Assembly: GCF_041583195.1 (NCBI RefSeq)
Contig: NZ_JBFHGL010000002.1
Location: 62,001-126,000 of the forward strand
Length of the DNA stretch: 64,000 nucleotides
Reading direction: 5' to 3'
DNA from: Sulfurimonas sp.
Lineage (GTDB): Bacteria; Campylobacterota; Campylobacteria; Campylobacterales; Sulfurimonadaceae
Shown here: piece after piece, positions 1 to 56,963 of the stretch
Numbering within the stretch: position 1 is the stretch's first letter
How the letters are laid out: the number at the start of each line of letters is the position of its first letter
Position numbers and translations under genes: made by a program
Notes under the pieces: generated by a model
Databases searched by the model: none
What the model was told of the DNA's origin: nothing
The model's input: only the letters and a program-made list of their open reading frames with translations

Positions 1-2021
1 ATCTTCAACAAATTCTACAGTCAATTCCTGGTATAACTACTGAATCATCTACTGGTGATACTTTAAAAATACACTTAAGAGGTGTAGAAAACCAAATGTA
101 TATGGGTGAAAAACCGGGTGTTGCAGTTGTAATTGACGGTGTACCTGTTTTTGAGAGAACTGGTAAAGTAAATATAGACCTTGACAATATTGAAAGCGTA
201 AAAGTTATAAAAGGTGGAGCATCTTATCTATTTGGTGATGACGCATTATCTGGTGCCGTGATTATTACAACAAAAAGAGGTGCAAAATATAACCACAACT
301 ATGGTGCAGTTGAAGTCGGAAGTGATGGATATAAAAAAGCTGTTGCAAGAACAGGATATGCAAATGATGATTTAAGTTTTCACGTTCAAGCGAGTACAAG
401 ATCTGCTGATGGATATCATGAAGATTCAGACTATGATACAAAATATCTAAATGGTAAATTACAATACTATATAGATGATAGTTCTGATATCAACCTTGGT
501 GTAGAGTATTCTGAGAGAGAAAAAGACTCACACGGTACTGTTGGCGGTGGTCTTGAAGCTTTAACAAACCCTGAATCTATTTACCTTGGTGATCAGCAAA
601 GTCGTGACTATACAAGAGGATATGATGTTGAACTATTAAAAGCATTCTTAACATATTCAAAAGACTTTGACCATGGTGCGAATCTTTTGGTAAATACTTA
701 CATCTATACAGACACTACAGAGTTTATGTCTGCTCCTCAGACTAAAGACTCTAGTGGTAATACAGATCTTACATTAACAGATGACAATTACGTATATGAC
801 AACCACTATGAACAAACTCAAAAAGGTGTAAAAGGTGAGTATAGAGATTCATTTAACAGTTCAGCTGCACTAGTTGGTGTTGATTTACGTGCAAATGAGT
901 ATGAAAATAAAACTACATTTAGAGCTGCTCAAGCATTAGTAGTTTACGGCGGACCTATGGCTGGTGTATATCCTGACTATTATCAACCTGGTGACTTTAA
1001 AAGCAACAATAAAACTGATGAAAACGTATATGCAGTGTATGGAGAATATAAATATGCATTTACTAACTCTTTTAGTGCTACTGCAAACTTAAGATATGAC
1101 AAGATAAAACTTGACTATACTGATTCAGAAGCAAATGATTTAAATAAAGATTTTTCAGTGTATTCATACAGACTTGGTCTTAACTACCAAATGAGTGATA
1201 ACTCTACACTATTTGCAAACTATTCTACAGGTTTTCGCGCACCTACAATCTCTCAACTTTTTGCAGGTGATGTAAGTACATGGGGTTCAACTATAAATAA
1301 TCCGAATCTAAAACCGGAAGAATCACTCAACTATGAAATCGGTGTAAGAGCATTAGCAAACAATATCAAATACGAAGCTTCAATCTTCCAGCTAGATAGA
1401 AAAGACTTTATTATGAGAACTTCTGGAAACTATGGTGATACTGATACTACAGATATGTGGGATAATGTAGGTGGAGCTAGACATAGAGGTTTAGAGCTAT
1501 CAACTATGGGAGAGATTACCGATTCTTTATCTTTTAATATGGCATATACTTATTTAAGAGCTAAATATACTAACTATAGAAACTTTGGTATCACATTGGG
1601 TTCAGATGTATACTTCCCTGTTTTTACACCTGCACCTGTAATGACTTATGATGTAACTGGAAATACAATCCCTAGAACATCTAAACATACTGTAAACCTA
1701 ATTATGGACTACAAAGCTACAAAAGAGCTTTCTTTTATGACTGAAGTAAATGCAAAAAGCAAATATTATGCAGATGATCTAAACCAAATTGAGATTGGTG
1801 GTCATGCTACACTAAACCTTATGGCTACGTATAATAGTAAACTTGGTATGTTTGATACTAGCTTCTTTGTAAGAGCTGACAATGTTTTAGATAAACAATA
1901 TTACACTTCAGCAAGAAGTAGTTCTGATAGAAATGAAGACGGTTTATTTAATTCTGAAGATTTATCTATTACGGTTAATCCTGGAAGAGTATTAACTGCC
2001 GGACTTTCTGCAAAATTTTAG
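1..2021 (+). CDS. TonB-dependent outer-membrane receptor (5' truncated)
   Basis: The frame is open to the left edge (first complete codon at base 3), so the signal peptide, TonB box and start of the plug lie outside the window; the ATG at 96 is internal. The visible N-terminus is a plug domain: QSIPGIT, LRGVENQ, then VVIDGVPVF, VIKGGASYLFGDDALSGAVI and ITTKRG. The rest is a 22-strand-type barrel with FRAPTISQLFAG and NPNLKPEES, ending in the terminal Phe typical of outer-membrane proteins. Such receptors import ferric siderophores, haem, vitamin B12 or chelated metals; the substrate cannot be read here. exbB follows after 9 bases and a tonB closes the run, so its energising proteins are probably co-transcribed. 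Confidence 0.93.
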   Translation, partial: LQQILQSIPGITTESSTGDTLKIHLRGVENQMYMGEKPGVAVVIDGVPVFERTGKVNIDLDNIESVKVIKGGASYLFGDDALSGAVIITTKRGAKYNHNYGAVEVGSDGYKKAVARTGYANDDLSFHVQASTRSADGYHEDSDYDTKYLNGKLQYYIDDSSDINLGVEYSEREKDSHGTVGGGLEALTNPESIYLGDQQSRDYTRGYDVELLKAFLTYSKDFDHGANLLVNTYIYTDTTEFMSAPQTKDSSGNTDLTLTDDNYVYDNHYEQTQKGVKGEYRDSFNSSAALVGVDLRANEYENKTTFRAAQALVVYGGPMAGVYPDYYQPGDFKSNNKTDENVYAVYGEYKYAFTNSFSATANLRYDKIKLDYTDSEANDLNKDFSVYSYRLGLNYQMSDNSTLFANYSTGFRAPTISQLFAGDVSTWGSTINNPNLKPEESLNYEIGVRALANNIKYEASIFQLDRKDFIMRTSGNYGDTDTTDMWDNVGGARHRGLELSTMGEITDSLSFNMAYTYLRAKYTNYRNFGITLGSDVYFPVFTPAPVMTYDVTGNTIPRTSKHTVNLIMDYKATKELSFMTEVNAKSKYYADDLNQIEIGGHATLNLMATYNSKLGMFDTSFFVRADNVLDKQYYTSARSSSDRNEDGLFNSEDLSITVNPGRVLTAGLSAKF

Positions 2022-2030
2022 AAGAGTTTT

Positions 2031-2480
2031 ATGATGGATATCGAACTTTTAAAAACAATTGTTGACTACGGAATCATCGGTCTTTTAGGTCTTATGAGTT
2101 TTATAGCTTTATGGTTTTGGATCGAGCGTATAATGTTTTATAAAAAAGTAGATGTTTCAAAATATAATACCAAAGAAGCTCTGGAGATTGATGTTACAAA
2201 CAATATTAACATCATCTCTACCTTTGGATCAAATGCTCCATACATAGGTTTACTTGGAACCGTATTTGGGATTATCATAACGTTTTATGCCATGGGACAA
2301 AGCGGTGACTTGGATGCTAAAATGATAATGACATCACTTGCACTTGCTCTTAAAGCAACTGCTATGGGACTTTTGGTTGCCATACCTTCAATTATATTTT
2401 ACAACCACCTAAGCAGAAAAATAGAAGTTATACTTGCAAAATATGATATCCATCAAAAGGAAAACGATCTTGCAAATTAA
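2031..2480 (+). CDS. exbB: ExbB-type proton channel subunit (MotA/TolQ/ExbB family)
   Basis: A 149-residue inner-membrane protein with a TM near residues 10-32 and two further TMs in the C-terminal half. The stretch [17 protein letters not shown] (about 67-83) and [18 protein letters not shown] (about 103-120) are the conserved pore-lining segments of the family. With ExbD it forms the proton-driven motor that energises TonB. It is short compared with E. coli ExbB, as is usual for Campylobacterota. Two adjacent ATGs occur at 2031 and 2034; either may be used. It overlaps the start of exbD, pointing to translational coupling. Confidence 0.93.
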
Positions 2481-2853
2481 AAAGTTTGATTCTATCAATG
2501 TAGTGCCGTTTATTGATATTATGCTCGTACTGCTTGTGATAGTTCTCACAACAGCTTCTTTTGTTGCAAAAGGAATTATACCTGTTGATCTGCCTGATTC
2601 TAAAAGTGCTTCAAAACAGGAAGATATAAAAAATCTAACTATAACTATTAAAGAGAGTGGAGAAGTTTTATTCGACAAAGAAAAAGTCCTTAAAAAAGAT
2701 ATTTCATCTAGATTAGAATCACTTAAAAAAACTACTCCAATCCACATAAACTGCGATAAAAAAGCAGAATTTGAACTCTTTGTAGAGGTTTTAGACATTC
2801 TAAAACTCAAAGAGTTTAAAAATCTAGGAATAATTACTCAAAAGGAAAAATAG
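2470..2853 (+). CDS. exbD: ExbD-type TonB energiser
   Basis: Biopolymer transport protein with one N-terminal [21 protein letters not shown] is the ExbD signature, including the Asp in the membrane segment that carries protons; the remainder is a periplasmic domain. Start choice: TTG at 2470 has an AAAAGG ribosome-binding site 9 bases upstream (2455-2460) and gives the usual ExbD N-terminus of about 7 residues before FDSIN. Upstream alternatives are ATG 2443 and TTG 2434, both deep inside exbB. With the chosen start it overlaps exbB by 11 bases and encodes about 127 residues. The next gene begins directly after its stop, so it sits in the same operon. Confidence 0.88.
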
Positions 2854-4686
2854 ATGATCGAAATAAATAATAATCGCGATAAAAATGATATATTCGGCAT
2901 GCCCGTTCTTGGGTTTATCTTTAAAAACCAAAACTTTCTTATGTTTGTAAGAATTCTAGTTCTTGGACTTTTTTTATACGGAATATACCTTGGCTTTGAG
3001 GTACAAACAAAAGAGAATACTTTTACACGTTACCTTTTTTGGGGACTGTTTTGGTCACTTTTTATGGTAGTAACTCTAGCTACATTTGGTCGTATCTTTT
3101 GCGGTATCTGTCCTCATGGATTTATAGGAAAGTATCTAACTAGATATGGACTTAAAAAAGAGATGCCTAAATGGCTAAAAAATCCTTGGTGGGGTTTAAT
3201 GCTTATTATAATTGGCTGGTGGGGAGTTTACTATATGTACCCTGGCTTTTTTAAAGCTCCTTTTGCAACAGCGATGCTGTTTACCGTACTAACTTTAATA
3301 GCATTTTTAATGTTTTATCTTTATAAAGATATGGAATATTGTAAAAATATCTGTCCAATAGGTTCTTTAACAAAAGCATTTCACCGTATATCTTTTACAT
3401 GGCTTGGTTCATATAAAAGCGATTGTGGTGATTGTAAAACTTTTGATTGTGCAAAAGCTTGTACATATAATCTAAAACCTTTTACTTTTGATAAAAAGAA
3501 CTCTATGGAAGACTGTTCTTTATGTATGGATTGTAGTGCAGCTTGTGAAGGTATTAGTTTTAAAATGGTAAAACCTGGAAAGTCTTTATATCAAAAATTT
3601 AAAATTGATAAGATAGAAGTTTGGACATATATACTTATAGCTGCAGCAATTTCAATTACAATGAGCTTTCATCATGGTTTAGGTAGAAGTAAAGCAGCTG
3701 AATTTATGCCTTGGACTAAAGCGGCAAACTGGTTTGAAAACACTTTTGGTGCAGTTAGTTTTGATCTTGTCGGCTTATTTGCATTTATGTTCTCAAATTT
3801 ACTTGTTTTATTTTTTGTGCTCTCTGGAATGTTTATAGCTTCAAAAGCTCTAAAAGCCGATTATTCTAAAACTTTTTATACTCTTGGGTATGCATTTGCA
3901 CCAATCTTTGTAATTGGCGGATTATCACACCTGTTACATAGTTTCTTTACACATACATATGCAAATATTGCAAACGGTTTTTTATACGGCTTTGGAATTG
4001 AAGGTCATGTTGAAAACTTGGCGACACGTAAAGATGCTTGGCTTTCAATCTTTAGTTACTTTCCTTACATAGCTGCTATATGGGCATTTTATATTTTATA
4101 TACACGTGTGAATCTGTTTGAAGCAAGTAAAAAGGCAAAAACTGTAGCCTATATATTTGCTTCACTTTTAATCGTATTCTTTTTATCTCTTAACTTATTT
4201 AGAATCTATGCAATGCACACATACGGAAAAGCAACATCAGGGCACTCTCACCATGGTGAACATCCTAACAGCACAGCTAAAATGTTCCAAAGTGTAAGTC
4301 CAAATAAAGCGATCATCTTACAAAAAGGTGAGAATGCCAAATCTTGTTCACAATGTGGTATGAAGCTACCTATGTTTTACAAAACTAATCATGCAGCAAC
4401 TGATTCAAAAGGAGAAGTAAAACAATACTGCTCTATTCATTGTATGCTGGATCATAAGCACAGTGAAGCAACAACAAGTGAGAAAGTTGTAGATACTATC
4501 AGCTTAACATTCATAGATGCGAGATCTGCATTTTATGTAGTAGATAGCAGTAAGAAAGGTACTATGAGTAAAATTAGCAAATATGCATTTAGTACAAAAG
4601 AAAAAGCTGAAGCATTTGCCAAAGAAAATGGTGGTAAAATTATGTGCTATAAAGATGCTCTCAAGGTAGCTGAGCAAGATTTTTAA
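2854..4686 (+). CDS. Polyferredoxin-like membrane protein fused to a NosL-type domain
   Basis: A 610-residue membrane protein. The N-terminal part resembles NapH/NosR/CcoG-type ferredoxin proteins: TMs near 29-48, 60-80, 112-128 and 140-157, the membrane motifs CGICPHG (83-89) and CKNICPIG (163-170), then cysteine clusters at 191-203 and 221-231 that could hold two 4Fe-4S clusters. More TMs follow (about 254-272, 303-330, 343-362, 397-416, 430-452). A His-rich linker (HSHHGEH, 464-470) leads to a periplasmic NosL-like domain (about 495-605) with CSQCGM and CSIHCM. NosL proteins bind Cu(I). No nos genes are nearby; its place between exbD and an RND pump suggests electron-driven metal reduction or handling (inference). 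It starts immediately after the exbD stop. Confidence 0.82.
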   Translation: MIEINNNRDKNDIFGMPVLGFIFKNQNFLMFVRILVLGLFLYGIYLGFEVQTKENTFTRYLFWGLFWSLFMVVTLATFGRIFCGICPHGFIGKYLTRYGLKKEMPKWLKNPWWGLMLIIIGWWGVYYMYPGFFKAPFATAMLFTVLTLIAFLMFYLYKDMEYCKNICPIGSLTKAFHRISFTWLGSYKSDCGDCKTFDCAKACTYNLKPFTFDKKNSMEDCSLCMDCSAACEGISFKMVKPGKSLYQKFKIDKIEVWTYILIAAAISITMSFHHGLGRSKAAEFMPWTKAANWFENTFGAVSFDLVGLFAFMFSNLLVLFFVLSGMFIASKALKADYSKTFYTLGYAFAPIFVIGGLSHLLHSFFTHTYANIANGFLYGFGIEGHVENLATRKDAWLSIFSYFPYIAAIWAFYILYTRVNLFEASKKAKTVAYIFASLLIVFFLSLNLFRIYAMHTYGKATSGHSHHGEHPNSTAKMFQSVSPNKAIILQKGENAKSCSQCGMKLPMFYKTNHAATDSKGEVKQYCSIHCMLDHKHSEATTSEKVVDTISLTFIDARSAFYVVDSSKKGTMSKISKYAFSTKEKAEAFAKENGGKIMCYKDALKVAEQDF

Positions 4687-4700
4687 AATAAAGAGGATAA

Positions 4701-7700
4701 ATGATAGACAGGGTATTAAAATTTTTTATTGAAAATTATAAAGTAAACTATACCCTCTTTATCCTGCTTTTTGCAGCAGGTATCTACTCCTATACACAAA
4801 TTCCAAAAGAGATATCACCTACAATTGAGCCAAATTCGGTAACGATCAGCGGATCATACACTGGAGCTTCCGTAGATCTATTAAATAGAATTGCTGTAAG
4901 TGAGATAGAAGCAGAGACTAAAAACCTCAGCGGTGTAGCAGAGATATCATCAGGTATATCTCCAGGTCGTTTTGCCATAACTTTAGAGCTTGAAGACGGA
5001 GCCGACAAACAAGAGGTTACAGATTCCGTAAAAGACGTTATATCGCTTGTAAGACAGAACCTTCCATCAGACATGGATGAACCTATTGTTAGGGGTGTTG
5101 CACACTCTAGAAGTATTATGCATGTCTCTATCCGCTCATCAAAAATATCAAGAGGCGAGTTAAAAACACTTGCAAAAGATTTTAAAAACAAACTTTTTAA
5201 CATTAAAAATGTATCTGAGGTCAGAATCTTTGGTGATTCTGATCTTATTTATGAACTTATCATAGATGAGAACAAAGTACACGCATATGGTCTTGTACTA
5301 AGTGATGTAACCAAAGTATTATCTGAACTATCACATATATTTCCACTTGGCAAAATAGACAATATAAAAGAGCAATACTACATATCTACATATAATGGTA
5401 AAAAACTATCAAGTGATCTGGAAAACACCATACTAAATATAAACGATCAGCAGATCATGCTAAAAGATATAGCTGCGGTAAATAAAAAATATGAAGATGC
5501 ATCGACTTTAGCTAGTATGAACGGTAAAAATTCTATTACTTTAGCTATATCTCAAAACCCTCTAGGCGATGCCATAGAGATAGCTGATGATATAAAAGAG
5601 TTGATATCAAAAATGAAAGTAGATGATGCTATATTTGACATAAGACGTGATCAGTCAATCATAATAAAAGACAGATTAAATATTATTATCTCAAACATCA
5701 TACTCGGTATTTTACTAATTACAATTTTAACGGCAGTTTTAATAAATATCCGTATAGCTTTTATCATAGCTTTGGGGATACCTACATCTTTCATTATAGG
5801 CTCCATATATTTTTACTTTACAGGTTACAGTATAAATGTGAACTCACTTATAGGTGTGCTTATAGCAATAGGTATAATTGTTGATGATGCCATAGTTGTT
5901 AGTGAAAATATTCAACAGTATATTGAAAAAGGCTACAAAGCAAGTGAAGCTGCATTTCTTGGTGCAAAAGAGATGGCCAAACCTGTAACAATTGCATCTT
6001 TGACTACACTTTTTTCATTTATACCTCTACTTATGATCAGCGGAAGACTTGGAGATATTATTGAACTGATTCCAATCGCTTTTTCTGCCCTTGTAATTGC
6101 CTCTTTAATCGAGTCATTTATATTTTTACCGATCCATGCTACACATACACTAAATTCTAATGCCAAGACACTTTCTTGGGAGAAAGTAAACAACTTATAT
6201 GCCGATGCACTAAGAGCTTGTGTAAAGTATCAGAAAAGTTTTTTAACTGTGTTTATAATTATTGTCCCTGTTTTAATATTCATAGCTATTAAAACTTCTA
6301 AATTTCAAATGTTTCCTGCATTTGATGCAACAAGTGTAGACATAACTTTCAAAGCAAAGCCTACTACTACTTTGGAGGACTCTATAAAAATAGTTCAGAC
6401 TATTGAAATGGATCTTTTAAAAAACAAAGATAAATTTTTTATAGAGCATGTAAGTTCAACTGCAGGTTATAGAAGAAGTGCTACGGGTGATGCAGAGATG
6501 TACCCTTATGTTGGATACATAACCGTTGAACTACAAAAACAAAAGCCTCAAAATTTTCTAGATAAATATATAACTCCATATCTGAGTTTATACTATAACG
6601 CTGAGGGTAGAACCAGAGAAAAATCATCGCAGCAGATCTCAAAAGAGATCAGAGAGTTTTTAAAAGAGCAAAACTATAAAAAAACTTTTACACTTTCAAA
6701 CTTGATGGTAGTAGAGAAAAAGATGGGTCATGCAAAAGCAGATGTACGCATAGGTGTAGTCAGTGAAGATTATCAAAAAGCTATTAAAGCCATTAAAGAG
6801 TTAGAAGACGGTTTTGCCAAAATAGACGGTATCAAATACTTTGGAGATAATGTAAAACTCGGAATTGATGAGATCAAACTAAAGATCAACTCTTATGGAG
6901 AAGCATTAGGTATTACTGAGAAATACGTAGGTAATTATATATCTGAGCTTTTCCTCTCAAAAAAAATCGGGACAATCTTTGATGAAAATGAGCTTGTAGA
7001 TATAAAGATAAAATCGACAAACTACGACAAAGATCTGGAGAGTTTTAAAGCGCTGCAAATTCCGCTTAGAGACGGAACACTTGTAAGACTAAAAGATATA
7101 TGTGATTTTAAAACGATTCAGTCCTTAGAACAACTTGTAAAAGATGATGGCGAAACAAGCTTTTATGTGTTTGCAAATGTCAATGCGAAAGTGATTACTG
7201 CAAACGAAGTCATAGAAAAAATAACACCGATCATAAACAAGTTAAAAAAAGAAGGAATTGATCTGAAGTTTAAAGGTGAGAGAGAAAAAACTCAAACACT
7301 AAAAACAGAGATGGTACTTGCATCAGTTTTAGCAATAGCACTTATTTTCATATCTATTCTTTATCTGTTTAATTCACTAAGAGAGACATTGATAGTAATG
7401 TCGGTTATACCGTTTTCACTGCTTGGTATTTTTATAGGTCACTATATAATGGGTTTAAATATATCTCTGCCGTCTTTAATTGGTGCTCTTGGACTTGCCG
7501 GAGTTATAGTAAATGATGGTATTATAATGATGGCTACACTAAATTCCGCAAGTTCTAAAGATAATATCTACACTCTTGCAGCAAAACGTTTTCGTCCAAT
7601 TATTCTAACATCTATCACTACTATTATAGGTTTATCATCACTGATCTTTTTCGCAACTGCTCAAGCCGTTTCTTTTCAACCACTTGCCGTAACTTTGGGT

Positions 7701-7784
7701 TACGGTCTGTTATGGGGGACTATCTTAAACTTATTTTATCTACCGACAATGTATAATTTCACTAAAAGTTTTAAACATGAATAG
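4701..7784 (+). CDS. RND-family efflux transporter, AcrB/MdtC-like inner-membrane pump
   Basis: 1027 residues with the duplicated RND architecture: TM1 near 15-32, a large periplasmic loop, TMs 2-6 around 325-480, a second periplasmic loop and TMs 8-12 at about 870-1020. VDDAIVVSEN (from 394) carries the Asp pair (D395, D396) of the proton relay in TM4. The ATG at 4701 follows AAGAGG at 4691. Length and layout fit the AcrB/MexB group. No adaptor or outer-membrane channel gene is adjacent; a HlyD-like adaptor and a TolC-like protein lie on the other strand at 15.1-15.9 and 11-12.2 kb. Substrate unknown. It overlaps tonB by 8 bases. Confidence 0.92.
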   Translation: MIDRVLKFFIENYKVNYTLFILLFAAGIYSYTQIPKEISPTIEPNSVTISGSYTGASVDLLNRIAVSEIEAETKNLSGVAEISSGISPGRFAITLELEDGADKQEVTDSVKDVISLVRQNLPSDMDEPIVRGVAHSRSIMHVSIRSSKISRGELKTLAKDFKNKLFNIKNVSEVRIFGDSDLIYELIIDENKVHAYGLVLSDVTKVLSELSHIFPLGKIDNIKEQYYISTYNGKKLSSDLENTILNINDQQIMLKDIAAVNKKYEDASTLASMNGKNSITLAISQNPLGDAIEIADDIKELISKMKVDDAIFDIRRDQSIIIKDRLNIIISNIILGILLITILTAVLINIRIAFIIALGIPTSFIIGSIYFYFTGYSINVNSLIGVLIAIGIIVDDAIVVSENIQQYIEKGYKASEAAFLGAKEMAKPVTIASLTTLFSFIPLLMISGRLGDIIELIPIAFSALVIASLIESFIFLPIHATHTLNSNAKTLSWEKVNNLYADALRACVKYQKSFLTVFIIIVPVLIFIAIKTSKFQMFPAFDATSVDITFKAKPTTTLEDSIKIVQTIEMDLLKNKDKFFIEHVSSTAGYRRSATGDAEMYPYVGYITVELQKQKPQNFLDKYITPYLSLYYNAEGRTREKSSQQISKEIREFLKEQNYKKTFTLSNLMVVEKKMGHAKADVRIGVVSEDYQKAIKAIKELEDGFAKIDGIKYFGDNVKLGIDEIKLKINSYGEALGITEKYVGNYISELFLSKKIGTIFDENELVDIKIKSTNYDKDLESFKALQIPLRDGTLVRLKDICDFKTIQSLEQLVKDDGETSFYVFANVNAKVITANEVIEKITPIINKLKKEGIDLKFKGEREKTQTLKTEMVLASVLAIALIFISILYLFNSLRETLIVMSVIPFSLLGIFIGHYIMGLNISLPSLIGALGLAGVIVNDGIIMMATLNSASSKDNIYTLAAKRFRPIILTSITTIIGLSSLIFFATAQAVSFQPLAVTLGYGLLWGTILNLFYLPTMYNFTKSFKHE

Positions 7785-8487
7785 ATACCTCTCGTCATTT
7801 ATCATTACAAGTTTTATTTATGTTAGCCTAATAGCAGGTGCTGTTGTATTCTTTTCAAACGACAATACATTCTCTGATAAAAAAATGGATAAACCAAATG
7901 TTATCAGTGTAAATATGATCTCTCAGCCGAAAACTCCAAAAAAACCGATCAAGAAAAAAATAGTTAAAGAAAAGAAAAAAGTTGTAAAGAAAAAACCTAT
8001 TAAAAAGAAGGTTGTAAAAAAAGTTATAAAAAAAGAAACACTACCAAAAAAGATAGAACAAAAACCTGTAGAAGAGATTATAGAAAAAGAGATAAAAGAA
8101 GAAATAGTTGAAGAGGAACCTATAGTTCAAGAGACTACTAATACAGAAGTTAAACAGCAGGTTATTGCAACAAAAAAAACAGAAGTAAATCTTGATGAGA
8201 TAAGAGCGAAACAAAATATTTTTTTTACAAAAGTAAGAAATAAAATTGATCAAAACAAAACATATCCAAGATCTGCAAGACGTAGAGGCATTGAGGGTGA
8301 TGTAGAAGTAAGTTTTAGTTTATGCAATGATGGAAATGTAAAAGATATTGAGTTTTTATCAGGTAAAAAAGTATTTAAAGAATCAATTATAAAAGCGATA
8401 GAGAACAGTTTTCCTATGGAAGTAGATCAGTCACTTTTCACTTTTCCAAAACAGTTCAAAATATCTGTAAAATATATACTAAGCTAG
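7777..8487 (+). CDS. tonB: TonB-like energy transducer
   Basis: 236 residues: one N-terminal TM (about 8-27), a long Lys/Glu-rich spacer with repeated KKK, KKP and EEI segments (about 50-125) expected to span the periplasm, and a C-terminal TonB domain (about 150-236) with YPRSARRRGIEGDVEVSF, the family's conserved region. It carries energy from ExbB-ExbD to the TonB box of outer-membrane receptors. It is the last gene of the operon and overlaps the RND gene by 8 bases (ATG inside that gene's last codons). The spacer is lysine-rich rather than proline-rich. Confidence 0.88.
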   Translation: MNRYLSSFIITSFIYVSLIAGAVVFFSNDNTFSDKKMDKPNVISVNMISQPKTPKKPIKKKIVKEKKKVVKKKPIKKKVVKKVIKKETLPKKIEQKPVEEIIEKEIKEEIVEEEPIVQETTNTEVKQQVIATKKTEVNLDEIRAKQNIFFTKVRNKIDQNKTYPRSARRRGIEGDVEVSFSLCNDGNVKDIEFLSGKKVFKESIIKAIENSFPMEVDQSLFTFPKQFKISVKYILS

Positions 8488-8488
8488 A

Positions 8489-9331
8489 TTACAAAATCAC
8501 CTTAAAAAAGATTAGGCTAAAAGCCATAACACCCATACCAAGCACTATTCCTAATATTGTTGTATGAGCATTGCCGTATATTCTTGCTGCAGGAAGCAAC
8601 TCATCAAAACTAATATAGATCATAATCCCTGCAACCATTCCAAAAGTTATTCCAAGTGTCATATCACCCATGAGGGGTAGTAAAATAAAAAAACCTATCA
8701 ATGCCCCTATAGGTTCTGCTATTCCACTTCCAAAAGCATAGTAAAATGCCTTTTTTTTATCTCCCGTTGCATGATAGATTGGAAGACTTACCGCCATCCC
8801 CTCAGGGATGTTATGAATTGCTATTGCAAGGGCTATAGGTATACCAAGTGCTAACCCGTCTAAAGCTGAAACAAATGTTGCAAACCCTTCTGGAAAATTA
8901 TGAATACCTATTGCAATAGCGGTAAATATACCAGTTCTTTTAAGTGCCTTTGTACTTACATCTTCTGAACTGCTAGGCTTTAGTTCACTAAGCTCATTTT
9001 GTGATTTTAACTCATGCGGATTTACATCTTCTGGGATCACTCTATCTATAAAAGCAGCTAATCCTATTCCTGCGAAAAATGTAGCAAGAGCTAAACTCTC
9101 ACCAATTATTTCACCGTAAATTGGTTTAAATGCATCTTGTGATTTTATTAATATCTCCATGAATGAGATATATATCATTACACCGGCTGAAAAACCCATT
9201 CCAATCGATAAAAAGTTATAATTACTTGTTCTGGAAAAAAAAGCAAGCATAGCACCTATACCTGTTGAAAGACCTGCTAGTATAGTGAGTAATAAAGCAG
9301 GGAAAAAAACTTCAGGTGCTAAATTTTCCAT
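8489..9331 (-). CDS. zupT: ZIP-family metal transporter, ZupT-like
   Basis: 280 residues with about eight TMs and a variable cytoplasmic loop (about 100-130) after TM3. The two metal-binding helices are clear: HNFPEG at 144-149 and HNIPEG at 173-178. Family members import Zn2+, Fe2+ and related divalent cations across the inner membrane. The start lies 1 base after the stop of the ferritin-like gene, so the two are very probably one transcript. Ferritin partnership and the Fur-box-like site upstream make iron a reasonable substrate alongside zinc (inference). Its stop almost abuts the convergent tonB stop. Confidence 0.9.
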   Translation of the reverse strand: MENLAPEVFFPALLLTILAGLSTGIGAMLAFFSRTSNYNFLSIGMGFSAGVMIYISFMEILIKSQDAFKPIYGEIIGESLALATFFAGIGLAAFIDRVIPEDVNPHELKSQNELSELKPSSSEDVSTKALKRTGIFTAIAIGIHNFPEGFATFVSALDGLALGIPIALAIAIHNIPEGMAVSLPIYHATGDKKKAFYYAFGSGIAEPIGALIGFFILLPLMGDMTLGITFGMVAGIMIYISFDELLPAARIYGNAHTTILGIVLGMGVMAFSLIFFKVIL

Positions 9332-10949: not shown

Positions 10950-12191
10950 TTAATCTTTTTTATACATCTCATATAGAGTTAATAACTCTAGTTGTTTATC
11001 TATATCATAAATCTTAGAATCTAACTCCGCCATCTCAAAAGAGTTTTTAAGAAGCTCTACATCATACTCTGTTTTATACCCTGCTTTATACAACTCTGTA
11101 GTATCATCAAGAAGTTTTTTATAGATATCTTTATTTTCAACACTTAGTTGTTTTTTCTTATCCAGATTATCTATGTTTTGCATAACCTGATCATATATAG
11201 CACTAAGTTCACGTTTTTTATCTTCAACTACTACTTTGGCTTTTAAATAATCAACTCTTGAAGATGATACATCCACAAAAGTATTTATATTTAAAGGTAT
11301 ACTTGCTTTTACACCGTAACTATATGATGTATTTTCAGGTCTGTCAAAAGTACCGAACATTTTTGTTTCGTCAGTCCAAGTATAATCTGCAATAAAATCA
11401 ACTTTTGGAAGATACTTTGCAATTGTTACATCTTTAAAATATCTGTTTTTTTCTACTTCGCTGTCACTCATTTGAAGTACTATATTGTAAGTTAAAAAAT
11501 CATCTTTAGATAACACACCCAAACTTGGAATACGAGCCTCTTTATAGTTCATATCACTTAGAGCTTCAAAACTTGATATTAAACGCTCTTTATTGGTCTC
11601 TATATCATATAAAGCTTGAATAACAACGTTTCTGTCTATAATTGCATTATCTAAAAAACTTGAATCAAGCTGTCCGCTTAAATATTGCTCTTTGACCTGT
11701 TCAAGTGCTATCTCGGTATTTCTTATTTGCAGGTTTTGACGTTTTACCCTTAGATCTATCTGCTTGATCTGCATAAGGATAGATATAGCGTCTTTAACTA
11801 GTTTTCTTTTCTGTACATCTACTGAATAATTTGCATATTTTCCGCTAGCTGTAGCATATTTGATCCCGTAGTAAATACCGCCGCTTTGAAAAATAGGTTG
11901 AGTCCATGTTACAGATGCACTTTCTTGATCCCACTCACTCTCACTAGCTGCTGCAGTTGATGTAGCTTCATCTTCTTGTTTATTTTTTGTAAAACTGTAG
12001 TTAAGCATAAAAGGTGCTATCCAAGAATCACGAAGCTTAGAACTTTCAGCTTCATTTTTCTCATAGCTATACTCGAACTGTTGCTTTTTTGAATCGCTAA
12101 TATATTTTTCTAGCGATTCATTTAACTGTTCCTCAGCATTAGCAATATTACAAAGAACTAAGAGCGCTATCCAAAGATTTAAAACCTTCAT
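10950..12191 (-). CDS. TolC-family outer-membrane efflux protein
   Basis: 413 residues. A clear signal peptide (MKVLNLWIALLVLCNIANA, cut before EEQL) fixes the start at 12191 even though this lies 44 bases inside argD. The mature protein has two repeats with long amphipathic coiled-coil helices (about 125-185 and 325-400) and barrel-strand segments such as VTWTQPIFQSGGIYYGIKYA. It forms the outer-membrane duct of tripartite exporters or type I secretion. A periplasmic adaptor is encoded two genes upstream in the same run; no pump gene is in this unit, the nearest being the RND gene at 4.7-7.8 kb on the other strand. Confidence 0.87.
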   Translation of the reverse strand: MKVLNLWIALLVLCNIANAEEQLNESLEKYISDSKKQQFEYSYEKNEAESSKLRDSWIAPFMLNYSFTKNKQEDEATSTAAASESEWDQESASVTWTQPIFQSGGIYYGIKYATASGKYANYSVDVQKRKLVKDAISILMQIKQIDLRVKRQNLQIRNTEIALEQVKEQYLSGQLDSSFLDNAIIDRNVVIQALYDIETNKERLISSFEALSDMNYKEARIPSLGVLSKDDFLTYNIVLQMSDSEVEKNRYFKDVTIAKYLPKVDFIADYTWTDETKMFGTFDRPENTSYSYGVKASIPLNINTFVDVSSSRVDYLKAKVVVEDKKRELSAIYDQVMQNIDNLDKKKQLSVENKDIYKKLLDDTTELYKAGYKTEYDVELLKNSFEMAELDSKIYDIDKQLELLTLYEMYKKD

Positions 12192-13381: not shown

Positions 13382-15115
13382 TCAAATAGTATTTATCCAA
13401 ACCATCTCTTCTTGGTAGATGGCACATTTGCCCTCATAACTATGTAGTGATGAAGTTAAATTATTAACACCTTTGACACCACTGTAAATAACTACACAAT
13501 CATCTCTAAGATCGTCATCTATTTTCACTATTAAATCAACTGAGCCAATTGATGACTTTATCTTTACTAAATCTCCATCGTTAAATCCGTGTGAAGCATT
13601 AATATATACGCCATCTTCTCTGTTAAACTGAGAATTTAAACTTTTTGAACTCTTCGGTGTTATTAAAAACAACTTCTCTTCATCCGCTACAAAAGCATCA
13701 TACTCATCTAAAAATACAAATTCGTCATCGTCTGTATCGAATCCATTTTTGTATGGAATCTCTTCTACACCTTTAACATGCAAGTTTCCTTCTGAATCTT
13801 CTTCACAAAAACTTTTAAAATGTTCTATATATTCATCTTCACTTTTTATCTCAATTCCAAACTCATCACATAGATATCTACTCAGCTCGTACTCGCTTAT
13901 ACCGCTGTCAATATCTTTTTGTTTATGCATCTCTGACATTGTGTTATGTGAAAATGATGTACGGATATCATTTTTATACAAAAAGTTTTTAGCAGGGATT
14001 ACAAGTGAAGCTGCTTCACTTGTTTCATTCTCATATAAACCAAAATAGATTAGATTTTTCACTTTTGAGAGTTCCTCTTTAACTCTGGTACTATTTGGCA
14101 TTTGTGATAATGGATTTGCACCTTGAACAAATACGCTCTCAAAGTCGGAAAATTTTGTATCAACTTTTGAAACTCTTTTTGCTTTAGTATTAAAGGGTGA
14201 GCTTATCCCTTCACTGGAATTGCCAAGATATGCAACACCACACCCCTCTTTCCCAAAAAGACCTAAATTAACTGCAAAAGCATCAATTGAGCGCATAACA
14301 TCAGCACCGTCTCTATACTTTTGAATTCCTACGCCACAAACTATGGCTACTTTTTTATCTTTAACCATAGCCAAAATATCACCTATCTCACCAAGTGTTA
14401 CGTCTATTTTGTCAAGTGTAGCTTTAATCCTGATCGTTTGTGTAAGTTCATAAAAATCTTCATACTCACTTGCATATTTTTTTAAATACTCTTCATCATG
14501 TCCATGTTCAATATGTAAAAAGCGACTAAGCAGTATTGCAAGTTCAAGATCTCCGCGTGGCTTGATCTGAACATGAAGATCTGCAGTTTTAGCGGCTTGT
14601 GTTTTTACAGGATCTATTACAATTATTTTTTTATCTTTTAATAATGGTAATAGATGAGATGAAGTGGTATGTGGGTTTCTTCCCCAAAGTATTACAACAT
14701 CAGATTTTGCTATTTGTGAGAGCGGCATATTTTTATTTGATCCGCGACCTTCAACTATTCCAGCCTCCCCTGCACCATCACACAGACTTCCATCTGTAAG
14801 TATAGCCCCGTGTGAAGCAAAAAAGTGCCCGACAACTCCTTGTAAAAGAGCAAAATTTCCGGCACTTTTATAATGAAGAATTTTACTTTTTTCACTATTT
14901 TGAATGATCTCTTTTAATTTTAAAAGAGCCTCATCCATACTGATCTCACAACCGTTAAATCTAGGTTTTTGAATCTCTTCAAAACCTTCATAGTGATTAA
15001 GATGCGGACATAAAAAGCCTTGAGTATGACCTTCTTTTTTGGCAGTTATTTTATCATCTTCATATATTATTTCACATGCATCATAACAGTCAAGAGGACA
15101 TGCCGTTTTATTCAT
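13382..15115 (-). CDS. Molybdopterin oxidoreductase family protein (cytoplasmic, small)
   Basis: 577 residues. The N-terminus holds a 4Fe-4S motif with C6, C10, C14 and C36 (CPLDCYDAC and GFLCPH). Molybdopterin/bis-MGD binding regions follow (DGSLCDGAGEAG, VILWGRNPHTTSSH, IVIDPVKTQAAKTADL) and a C-terminal dinucleotide-binding barrel (HGFNDGDLVKIKSSIGS). There is no twin-arginine signal, so a cytoplasmic location is expected. It is shorter than most formate dehydrogenases or nitrate reductases. No small iron-sulfur or membrane partner is adjacent, so substrate and electron partner are unknown. It overlaps the adaptor gene upstream by 8 bases. Confidence 0.8.
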   Translation of the reverse strand: MNKTACPLDCYDACEIIYEDDKITAKKEGHTQGFLCPHLNHYEGFEEIQKPRFNGCEISMDEALLKLKEIIQNSEKSKILHYKSAGNFALLQGVVGHFFASHGAILTDGSLCDGAGEAGIVEGRGSNKNMPLSQIAKSDVVILWGRNPHTTSSHLLPLLKDKKIIVIDPVKTQAAKTADLHVQIKPRGDLELAILLSRFLHIEHGHDEEYLKKYASEYEDFYELTQTIRIKATLDKIDVTLGEIGDILAMVKDKKVAIVCGVGIQKYRDGADVMRSIDAFAVNLGLFGKEGCGVAYLGNSSEGISSPFNTKAKRVSKVDTKFSDFESVFVQGANPLSQMPNSTRVKEELSKVKNLIYFGLYENETSEAASLVIPAKNFLYKNDIRTSFSHNTMSEMHKQKDIDSGISEYELSRYLCDEFGIEIKSEDEYIEHFKSFCEEDSEGNLHVKGVEEIPYKNGFDTDDDEFVFLDEYDAFVADEEKLFLITPKSSKSLNSQFNREDGVYINASHGFNDGDLVKIKSSIGSVDLIVKIDDDLRDDCVVIYSGVKGVNNLTSSLHSYEGKCAIYQEEMVWINTI

Positions 15116-15905
15116 CTTTTAACTCAATCTTTACAAGGTTTGAAAATACATTTGGCGAATCTATAATTATTTGAGCCATATATTTTGATATATTTTTAGA
15201 ATCAGCAATATTCACGACTCTGCTAATTTTATACTCTGTCTTTTTCTCATTTATATACACAACTTTATTTTGCGCACCAGAGAGATCATCTCTATTTAAA
15301 TATATTGTCAATTTTGCTTTTGATATATCAGCAACCTTAGCCAGAGGAGTTGAAAGATTAACAACTTGCCCCGGTTTTACATTTAACTCATAAAGAACAA
15401 AACCATTGGCTTTTAAATTTTTATCGCTTACACTACGTTTTAAAACTGCCTCTCTTAGCTTAAGATCAGTTATTTGTACCTTTAGGCTTTGGATCTCTTT
15501 TTGTGTACTTAATAGTTGGTTCTCACTATTAATTAAGTCATAATATTCTTTATCTTTTTCAACTTGAGACTTAATTTTCAAACCTTCTACTCTTTTGTAG
15601 TTTGTTCGTTTTCTAACAAGTGAGCTCTCTAAATTTTTGACAATTTCCTCATTTGCTACAACTGTGTTTTGTAAATACTCTAGTTTACTTTTTATGTACT
15701 TTAACTCTTTTTCATCCAACTCTGAATCGATTTTTATATATGACTCAGATGAAAGTGTTTTTCCTAGATTTTTCTCATCTGCAGATATAACCAATCCAGA
15801 AACATTTGAGCTTATATCCCGGATCTCAACCGGCTCTACTTTCGCATAATATTCACTTGCGAACAAAAAAGTCATTGGTAATAGTAAAATAACTAAAAAT
15901 TTCAT
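15108..15905 (-). CDS. HlyD/RND-type periplasmic adaptor protein
   Basis: 265 residues with a signal peptide (MKFLVILLLPMTFLFAS). A split biotinyl-lipoyl domain (VEIRDISSNVSGLVISADE and LYELNVKPGQVVNLSTPLAKVADI) flanks a coiled-coil hairpin (about 65-155); a beta-barrel segment with LTIYLNRDDL follows. Adaptors bridge an inner-membrane pump to a TolC channel. This one is short and lacks a clear membrane-proximal domain. It heads the minus-strand run that ends with tolC and midA. The pump partner is not in the run; the RND transporter at 4.7 kb is a candidate (inference). Confidence 0.8.
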   Translation of the reverse strand: MKFLVILLLPMTFLFASEYYAKVEPVEIRDISSNVSGLVISADEKNLGKTLSSESYIKIDSELDEKELKYIKSKLEYLQNTVVANEEIVKNLESSLVRKRTNYKRVEGLKIKSQVEKDKEYYDLINSENQLLSTQKEIQSLKVQITDLKLREAVLKRSVSDKNLKANGFVLYELNVKPGQVVNLSTPLAKVADISKAKLTIYLNRDDLSGAQNKVVYINEKKTEYKISRVVNIADSKNISKYMAQIIIDSPNVFSNLVKIELKDE

Positions 15906-55126: not shown

Positions 55127-55834
55127 TTAGTAGTCTAATTTATAAACTTCGTCTTCTGTAATATCATTAAAGTTAACTAATTTTTTACCTTTATGATCCA
55201 TTTTAAAAGTTTGTGCTTCTTCTTTGTTTTTAAAAGGTATTAACTCATCACCCATAGGTCCATATACATCACTGCCGATTACATAATAAGCTTTTGTTGC
55301 ATCTATAGCTTTTTGTGAATAGTAATCAGTTACTAATATCTTTTCAATGTTTTCTTTTTTAGAATTTTTATAATCGCCCCACTTCATAGGAGAAAAATAA
55401 AACTTCATCATATCTTTTACACCGTCAAACGAATGGTGATGTTCATGTGAATTGTGCTTATAAAAAACTTGTGTAGCCCATTTTGGATACTTATATGTGA
55501 ACATCCCGCACACAGGACACTTTTCACCTTGTTTTAGTATTATATTATGTGTTTTAATTTCTGAATATTCTAAACGTTTAATATCCCAAACATATAAAGA
55601 CAAAGCTTCAATATGCTTGCTTTTTAAAACCTTACATATGTTCTTATTTTTTATATCTGCTTTTAGATCATCTATAGTTTTATATTTTGACAGATCTATA
55701 TTTTGGGCACATCTTTTTTGAAAAATTTTCTTTCCCATAGGATATATCTTTTTCTCTAAAACATCTTTGTTATAGTTCTCTTGTGCACTTGATATAGAAA
55801 TAGTAAGAAGTATTAAAAGGAAGTATTTGTTCAT
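55127..55834 (-). CDS. NosL-domain exported protein
   Basis: About 235 residues with a signal peptide (MNKYFLLILLTISISSA). The N-terminal 80 residues (KKIFQKRCAQNIDLSKYKT to IKNKNICKVL) have two Cys and no haem motif; the C-terminal part is NosL-like, with GEKCPVCGMF, a His-rich HNSHEHHHSFDG and YVIGSDVYGPMGDEL. NosL proteins deliver Cu(I) in the periplasm to nitrous oxide reductase; here no nosZ is visible, so a more general copper role is possible. ATG 55834 is chosen for the signal peptide; ATG 55861 lies inside the upstream gene. This is the second NosL domain in the window. Confidence 0.78.
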   Translation of the reverse strand: MNKYFLLILLTISISSAQENYNKDVLEKKIYPMGKKIFQKRCAQNIDLSKYKTIDDLKADIKNKNICKVLKSKHIEALSLYVWDIKRLEYSEIKTHNIILKQGEKCPVCGMFTYKYPKWATQVFYKHNSHEHHHSFDGVKDMMKFYFSPMKWGDYKNSKKENIEKILVTDYYSQKAIDATKAYYVIGSDVYGPMGDELIPFKNKEEAQTFKMDHKGKKLVNFNDITEDEVYKLDY

Positions 55835-55841
55835 AAAAAGA

Positions 55842-56963
55842 CTACACCCTTGTAGATGCAACCTCTTTAATAGTATCTATAACATACTTGATCTCTTCAT
55901 CGCTCATAGATGCATAGATCGGAAGTGATAATACTTGCTGATATGAACGAAGCGCTACAGGAAACGCATTTACTTTTAGAGAATACTTCGTTTTATAGTA
56001 AGAAATTAGATGTAGAGGTATAAAATGCAGACCTGTATGTACACCTTTGTCCTTTAACTCTCTTGCAAATGAATCACGGTTTTTATCTATTTTGATAATG
56101 TATAAAGAATAAGGTGTTTCAACACTTTCTAGATCAGGAAGTGTAATATGATCAACTCCTACTAATTCTTTTGAATAGATCTGTGCAATCTCTTTTTGTC
56201 TTTGCATAACTTTATCTTGCTTTTTAACCATAGCACGGATAAATGCAGCATCTAATTGACTCATCGAGTAATCATTTCCAATATCAACAACATCATAAAT
56301 ATACTCTAGTGCATCTTCATCTCTAACAATAGCATGATTGTTTAGAAGTCTTGCACGCTCTATAATTTCATCATCATCAGTTACAAGCATACCACCGTTA
56401 CAAATATTCTCTCTTAGATGTGATGAGAAGTTAAAACAAGTGATATCTGCACCTGTTGAACCAATCTTCTGCCCATTATATGTAGCTCCTAGAGCATCAC
56501 AGGCATCTTCAACAATTTTAACATTGTAAAGTTTACCCATATTGTAAAGTCTTTCTAAATCCACAGTGATTCCTGCAACATGAGTTACTATAACCGCTTT
56601 TAGTTTTTTAGACTTATTTTCCTGCAGATATTCTTCTAGTTTATTTAGATCTATATTGTAGTAATTTTCTTCTATATCTATAAATATAGGTTCAGCATCA
56701 AAATGGCGTACAACTTCAGGTACGTTTGGATGTGAGTTTACAGAACATACAACTTTATCCCCACGTTTTAGATCAAGTGCTAACATTGCAAGATGCAGTG
56801 CAGATGTTCCGTGAGATGTAGCTACAGCGTATGAAGCACCTACATATGAGCAAAACTCATCTTCAAGTTCTTCTCTTTGACAAAGATCATCACCGTCAAG
56901 AGCATCACTTACGTTTGAGTGTTCCTCTACATCATTTTCGTATTTACTAAACAATACTTCCAT
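55842..56963 (-). CDS. DegT/DnrJ/EryC1-fold protein lacking the PLP lysine
   Basis: 373 residues with the fold of sugar aminotransferases: SHGTSALHLAMLAL (50-63) for the cofactor phosphate, EDACDALGA with D153 for the PLP nitrogen, and the C-terminal YIIKIDKNRDSFARELKDKGVHTGLHFIPLH. Where active members read FSFHP-x-K, this protein reads FNFSSHLRENICNGG (177-191): Leu183 stands at the Lys position, with H182 beside it. Dehydratases such as ColD use His there, but at the aligned place. So it is either a non-aminotransferase or a PLP-independent protein. It lies between nadE and the NosL-type gene. Confidence 0.8.
   Translation of the reverse strand: MEVLFSKYENDVEEHSNVSDALDGDDLCQREELEDEFCSYVGASYAVATSHGTSALHLAMLALDLKRGDKVVCSVNSHPNVPEVVRHFDAEPIFIDIEENYYNIDLNKLEEYLQENKSKKLKAVIVTHVAGITVDLERLYNMGKLYNVKIVEDACDALGATYNGQKIGSTGADITCFNFSSHLRENICNGGMLVTDDDEIIERARLLNNHAIVRDEDALEYIYDVVDIGNDYSMSQLDAAFIRAMVKKQDKVMQRQKEIAQIYSKELVGVDHITLPDLESVETPYSLYIIKIDKNRDSFARELKDKGVHTGLHFIPLHLISYYKTKYSLKVNAFPVALRSYQQVLSLPIYASMSDEEIKYVIDTIKEVASTRV

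Follow-up and report, generated by a model that had tools for sequence, protein, structure and literature searches.

A 64,000-nucleotide stretch of a Sulfurimonas sp. genome (contig NZ_JBFHGL010000002.1, positions 62,001 to 126,000 of the forward strand; hereafter the window) opens with a six-gene operon that joins a TonB-dependent receptor to a membrane polyferredoxin carrying a fused NosL domain. The operon is a real, conserved and so far uncharacterised system (a literature search found no paper describing it), and its sequence suggests that it probably serves copper acquisition, by import of a copper chelate, reduction at the inner membrane and capture of Cu(I) by NosL. We favour copper because the operon has a promoter box in common with an OprC-type copper receptor, because standalone NosL genes carry this box too and because the NosL domain matches solved copper chaperones.

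All six genes are open, collinear and closely packed in the same direction, and Pfam and NCBIfam assignments bear out the order given by the original prediction: receptor, exbB, exbD, polyferredoxin–NosL, resistance–nodulation–division (RND) permease and tonB. The receptor gene (1-2021, plus strand like the rest; PF00593 at E 3e-51, PF07715) is truncated by the window edge. Its ATG lies 180 bases upstream, at G000:C2:61820, and the complete protein (L004:9821-12022, upstream stretch included) has 733 amino acids and a signal peptide. The operon encodes the receptor's own ExbB, ExbD and TonB: exbB occupies 2031-2480 (PF01618; TIGR02805 at 184 bits, cut-off 135), exbD 2434-2853 (PF02472 at E 9e-27; TIGR02804 just under its cut-off, at 115 bits against 123) and tonB, the last gene, 7777-8487 (PF03544 at E 1e-10; TIGR01352 above cut-off). 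Between exbD and tonB lie the membrane polyferredoxin part (2854-4263, residues 1-470; PF12801 twice), the fused NosL domain (4264-4686; PF05573 at E 7e-15) and the RND permease (4701-7784, 1,027 amino acids; PF00873 at E 1e-134). The exbD reading frame opens with a TTG at 2434, an in-frame ATG at 2443 being the likelier start, and it overlaps exbB by ~38-47 bases. Overlaps or gaps of at most 14 bases, as originally described, thus hold for four junctions (+9, 0, +14 and -8 bases) and fail for the second in order, exbB/exbD (-38 to -47). The operon ends at 8487, facing a convergent ZIP transporter gene whose own end is at 8489; the upstream boundary is marked by a hairpin after pilT and by the conserved promoter box.

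The combination had been called unusual, and a failure of its genes to co-occur in relatives was to count against it. The gene pair does recur, and the operon proves to be a phylum-wide one. Sampling 200 family genomes, the neighbourhoods of 60 loci and 80 named loci, we found the receptor within the polyferredoxin's gene run at 71 of the 87 non-redundant loci of the phylum, the pair being present in Sulfurimonas, Sulfurovum, Sulfuricurvum, Arcobacteraceae, Sulfurospirillaceae, Hydrogenimonas and Nitratifractor. The same 87 loci include tonB 38 times, exbB 34, a double-cubane reductase 31 and a fused NosL 25, all of these counts being lower bounds owing to contig ends. The operon has two forms, a short one, as here, and a long one that runs receptor–(exbB–exbD)–DsbD–polyferredoxin(–NosL)–C-terminal domain–NapH-type ferredoxin–double-cubane reductase–activator–(RND)–tonB, with parts named by Pfam and NCBIfam. 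The long-form double-cubane reductase scores 348.8 bits (cut-off 350) and is accompanied by an ATPase activator gene; no double-cubane protein was found in this genome. Long-form polyferredoxins (L042:8941-11703 and similar) also possess an extra periplasmic domain of ~300 residues (about 610-920), weakly like DUF4198 (E 0.001) and ending in a membrane helix.

The fusion protein is 610 amino acids long and combines Fer4_5 (PF12801) with NosL (PF05573). Its polyferredoxin part has 12 cysteines that do not vary among 20 homologues with identities as low as 37 percent and that form two CxxC/CxxxC-P type motifs and two 4Fe-4S sets; His274 and His359 are also conserved. Judged by the helices of an AlphaFold2 model and by loop charge, the protein is predicted to cross the membrane nine times, with cytoplasmic clusters and with the His-rich linker and NosL on the periplasmic side (mean predicted local distance difference test score 80.6; the cluster loop, residues 188-224, is of low confidence). 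The linker, HSHHGEH, leads into a NosL domain with the motifs CSQCGM and CSIHC. Profile (PF05573 above cut-off), CxxCGM motif and fold all place this domain in the NosL family, from which Cu(I) binding is predicted. It matches the solved NosL 7og7 by phmmer (E 4e-5), and a Foldseek search with the fusion protein recognised only the NosL part (7og7 and NosDFYL entries including 7znq). The NapH model reaches 20 bits on the polyferredoxin against a cut-off of 234, leaving it outside the CcoG/NapH family. Where NosL is missing in relatives, the polyferredoxin often has a His-rich C-terminal tail. The genome encodes two more NosL proteins, a standalone one of 244 amino acids between lpxK and a DegT aminotransferase gene (55127-55861, minus strand) and a third at G000:C1:147600.

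A side-by-side comparison of upstream regions reveals a direct-repeat box, TTAACAC-N4-(T/G)TAACACT, which mostly lies 55-75 bases ahead of the receptor start codon and has a -10-like hexamer of the TATACT or TTAAAGT class downstream of it. The copy ahead of this operon's receptor (TTAACACTAATGTAACACT; G000:C2:61757-61775, outside the window) is the only perfect one in a genome-wide pattern search. Of 59 non-redundant receptors, 48 have the box upstream, whereas dinucleotide shuffling (200 sets) yielded 0.06 on average and never more than 1; among named loci throughout the phylum the count is 54 of 63. The box criteria were not preset, and some of the loci later counted had served to derive the pattern; the OprC-type genes, a second locus set and genome-wide counts are independent tests. 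A one-mismatch box with a -10 lies ahead of the genome's OprC-type receptor gene, a separate locus at G000:C1:195347 whose product matches OprC by phmmer (1e-25). The copper ligands of OprC, CxxxM-HxM (PMC8610252), appear there as C91xxxM95 and H289xM291, invariant in 32 of 32 relatives (gathered by protein search, TIGR01778 at E 1e-60 having been too strict). Boxes stand ahead of 23 of these 32 OprC-type receptors (shuffle rate 0.2 percent); none stands ahead of the genome's six other TonB receptors, which score 9-11 of 15, the background level. Across 12 genomes the pattern has 34 perfect matches, compared with 4 for a reversed control. The genes behind them are mostly this operon and OprC-type receptors; other matches precede two standalone NosL genes (in two relatives), a receptor gene adjoining a PepSY-like one and an element resembling a small RNA.

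Box sequences also occur in other settings. One relative (L190, G091:C1:1356840) has the box ahead of a small gene–TolC–adaptor–RND operon with a divergent response regulator/histidine kinase (RR/HK) pair. Four genomes (L175, L177, L180 and L189) carry a box-like sequence in opposite orientation ~100-160 bases upstream of ccoN, the cbb3 oxidase gene. A near-copy at G000:C4:170010 (minus strand; L194:4011 -) has no annotated gene and recurs in L163, L164, L165, L183 and L195. In these six genomes it precedes a conserved stretch, GATTCTCC(A/T)TGTAT...TGA(C/T)TCA..., beside a chorismate-mutase-like gene; the stretch resembles a small RNA whose 5' part is anti-Shine-Dalgarno. Between box and receptor start, L080, L081, L085, L197 and L271 carry TTTGGCGACT...GGCAAGGAATGGCGACT(A/G)GCACCG, possibly an RNA element. 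Scanned against Rfam at gathering thresholds, the promoter and small-RNA regions gave no match.

Direct repeats of 11 bases typify the OmpR family of response regulators, and in Arcobacteraceae (L233, L238, L242 and L257) an OmpR-type regulator and a small histidine kinase lie directly upstream of receptor–polyferredoxin–exbB–exbD–tonB. The best match to that regulator in the Sulfurimonas genome (43 percent) sits in a pyrC–RR–HK–exbB run, as in three relatives. An RR/HK pair 6 kb from the OprC-type gene, sitting with lipid-modification-like genes, was set aside as the regulator. Phosphate control of the PhoB/PhoP type was considered because the TTAACA repeats resemble the Bacillus PhoP box, and was rejected, as 0 of the 34 box matches in the 12 genomes lie ahead of a recognised phosphate gene (three are not fully resolved).

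We propose that the receptor, energised by its own ExbB–ExbD–TonB, would carry a copper chelate into the periplasm. The polyferredoxin, using its iron-sulfur clusters, would move electrons from the cytoplasm across the inner membrane and reduce Cu(II) at the periplasmic face, loosening the chelate. The His-rich linker and fused NosL would then bind Cu(I) and pass it to cuproenzyme assembly. The client in this genome is likely to be the cbb3 oxidase, since no NosZ match was found (the genome being 99.9 percent complete) and there is one oxidase of the COX1 family, of cbb3 type. An OmpR-type response regulator may switch the operon through the box common to the OprC-type receptor, presumably when copper is limiting. 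For the RND pump, return of the spent chelator or export of surplus metal are possible roles. In relatives, the double-cubane reductase with its ATPase activator, the NapH-type ferredoxin and the DsbD-type protein probably supply electrons. More tentatively, copper uptake across the phylum could follow one scheme, in which electron transfer by iron-sulfur clusters across the inner membrane strips the metal from its chelate in the periplasm and loads the fused NosL, in many species with a boost from an ATP-driven double-cubane reductase.

Several observations weigh against the copper proposal. Copper is the most likely metal as judged from sequence. Among solved structures the receptor itself is nearest to PqqU/YncD, and the CxxxM-HxM ligands of OprC are missing from it. 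The receptor scores under siderophore and heme models, the best being a TonB-siderophore model, below cut-off. Its plug histidine His85 and Met95 are each conserved in 35 of 37 non-redundant relatives. Foldseek gives no confident structural relative for the membrane part of the polyferredoxin, and metal reduction is a putative activity for its family. NosL, fused at only 25 of the 87 loci, is therefore inessential to the system. With many response-regulator paralogues in the genome, the pyrC-linked regulator is only a candidate; the box ahead of the TolC–adaptor–RND efflux operon in one relative (G091) makes a copper-excess signal possible.

Iron is a competing reading, and the original prediction of reductive uptake of a chelated metal had named copper and iron side by side. 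Under a ferric-siderophore reading, the polyferredoxin would take the place of the PepSY/FhuF-type siderophore reductases. The receptor's best-scoring model would fit, as would the common placement of inner-membrane reductases next to siderophore receptors; FoxB is given as an established example in a work cited by PMC13038864. However, no Fur-like box was found above shuffles in 55 upstream regions, a search made with a borrowed consensus and without a positive control, and the box is common to the OprC-type copper receptor, not to the six other TonB receptors. NosL, moreover, belongs to a copper chaperone family. We regard siderophore uptake as unlikely, and of the predicted alternatives it is copper that stands, on the box in common with the OprC-type receptor and standalone NosL genes and on the NosL match. 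Were copper the metal, it might be destined solely for nitrous oxide reductase, since NosZ is the normal client of NosL, and polyferredoxin and NosZ do co-occur weakly (odds ratio 2.2, p 0.016, uncorrected for kinship and completeness). However, this genome has no NosZ, and of 58 genomes that encode the polyferredoxin 28 lack it too, which refutes NosZ as a general client and makes a dedicated NosZ supply very improbable.

A role in defence against copper or other metal stress, with the RND protein exporting metal, the other genes recycling or reducing it and the box sensing excess copper, could draw on the presence of RND in the operon and on the relative in which the box precedes a TolC–adaptor–RND operon adjoining an RR/HK pair. 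Yet RND occurs in only 18 of the 87 non-redundant loci (many contigs are cut); these relatives carry the orthologue within the corresponding operon. The permease is accompanied there by no adaptor or outer-membrane partner gene in the present operon, so that these genes do not make up a tripartite pump, and NCBIfam gives it a better score for a multidrug-type permease than for CusA/CzcA. Export through it, the release of the original prediction, is unsupported. Import is the function of a TonB receptor that comes with its own energy supply, and the OprC-type importer carries the same box; stress defence is accordingly a quite unlikely explanation. Further along the window a TolC-type gene (10950-12191) and an HlyD-type gene of 265 residues (15108-15905), both on the minus strand and with no pump of their own, lie on either side of argD and a molybdopterin-oxidoreductase-like gene; relatives keep this layout. 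They are possible RND partners, but are also present in relatives without RND. We assign an equally low probability to a system that takes up an organic cofactor or substrate and reduces it at the expense of ATP, in which the long-form double-cubane reductase would be the true catalyst. Known systems of that reductase and activator reduce difficult small molecules, and the closest solved receptors transport pyrroloquinoline quinone. The reductase pair, though, is absent here and from about two thirds of loci (some cut short), whereas short and long forms alike retain the receptor–polyferredoxin pair and the box, and His/Met-rich tails and NosL point to a metal.

Read as a copper-acquisition system, the operon may be seen as the Campylobacterota counterpart of CrtA–CrpH of Bordetella pertussis, in which a copper receptor is paired with a PepSY_TM putative copper reductase, with ExbBD/TonB in some operons, a heme-copper oxidase as client and no Fur site (PMC12914433, PMC13038864). 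Both arrangements would set a TonB receptor for chelated copper beside an inner-membrane putative copper reductase with periplasmic function, and they would agree in ExbBD/TonB genes and in the link to a heme-copper oxidase; as to a Fur site, the search here with a borrowed consensus gave none above shuffles. They differ in that CrpH is a heme protein of the PepSY_TM type, whereas ours is an iron-sulfur polyferredoxin (Fer4_5/NosL) outside that family; the fusion protein may work like CrpH without being one. Fusion of NosL to the reductase, RND in the operon and control through a direct-repeat box are further differences, and this receptor appears to fall in another sequence group, being only distantly similar to the CrtA structure 9rvq (5e-7); the CrtA family is marked by an invariant binding-site His358. 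OprC/NosA (PMC8610252) is likewise TonB-dependent and has the box in common, both here and among the relatives examined (23 of 32), but the OprC-type gene forms a separate locus and its CxxxM-HxM site has no equivalent in the operon's receptor.

The NosL part resembles NosL of the NosDFYL–NosZ system in fold, CxxCGM motif and predicted periplasmic location. It differs in being fused to a membrane polyferredoxin rather than being a lipoprotein; NosDFY genes are missing from the operon, as is NosZ from the genome. Proteins of the CcoG/NapH/NosR type, among them CcoG, a reported cupric reductase (Marckmann 2019, as cited in PMC13038864), have in common with the polyferredoxin their membrane location, CxxxCP-type motifs and two 4Fe-4S sets, in line with its weak NapH match; set apart from them are its nine predicted helices, a second membrane half without known relative and the predicted reduction on the periplasmic side. 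Both partners of the double-cubane systems, reductase and ATPase activator (NF040772 and TIGR00241), occur in the long form of relatives and are absent from this genome. We know of no report of a double-cubane reductase in a TonB operon, and a full-text literature search for the two together gave no match.

Copper uptake by Gram-negative bacteria is poorly known, OprC and CrtA being the only well-described routes. Campylobacterota depend on cbb3 oxidase and frequently on NosZ too, and their habitat is often sulfidic water with little copper. If the copper reading is right, they would have a solution of their own, with iron-sulfur clusters in place of heme, and the common box would offer a ready definition of a copper regulon that includes a conserved small-RNA-like element. 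The long form raises the question of why a metal-uptake operon needs an ATP-driven double-cubane reductase; should the tentative phylum-wide scheme hold, it would give TonB-dependent import its first case of coupling to an ATP-driven source of low-potential electrons.

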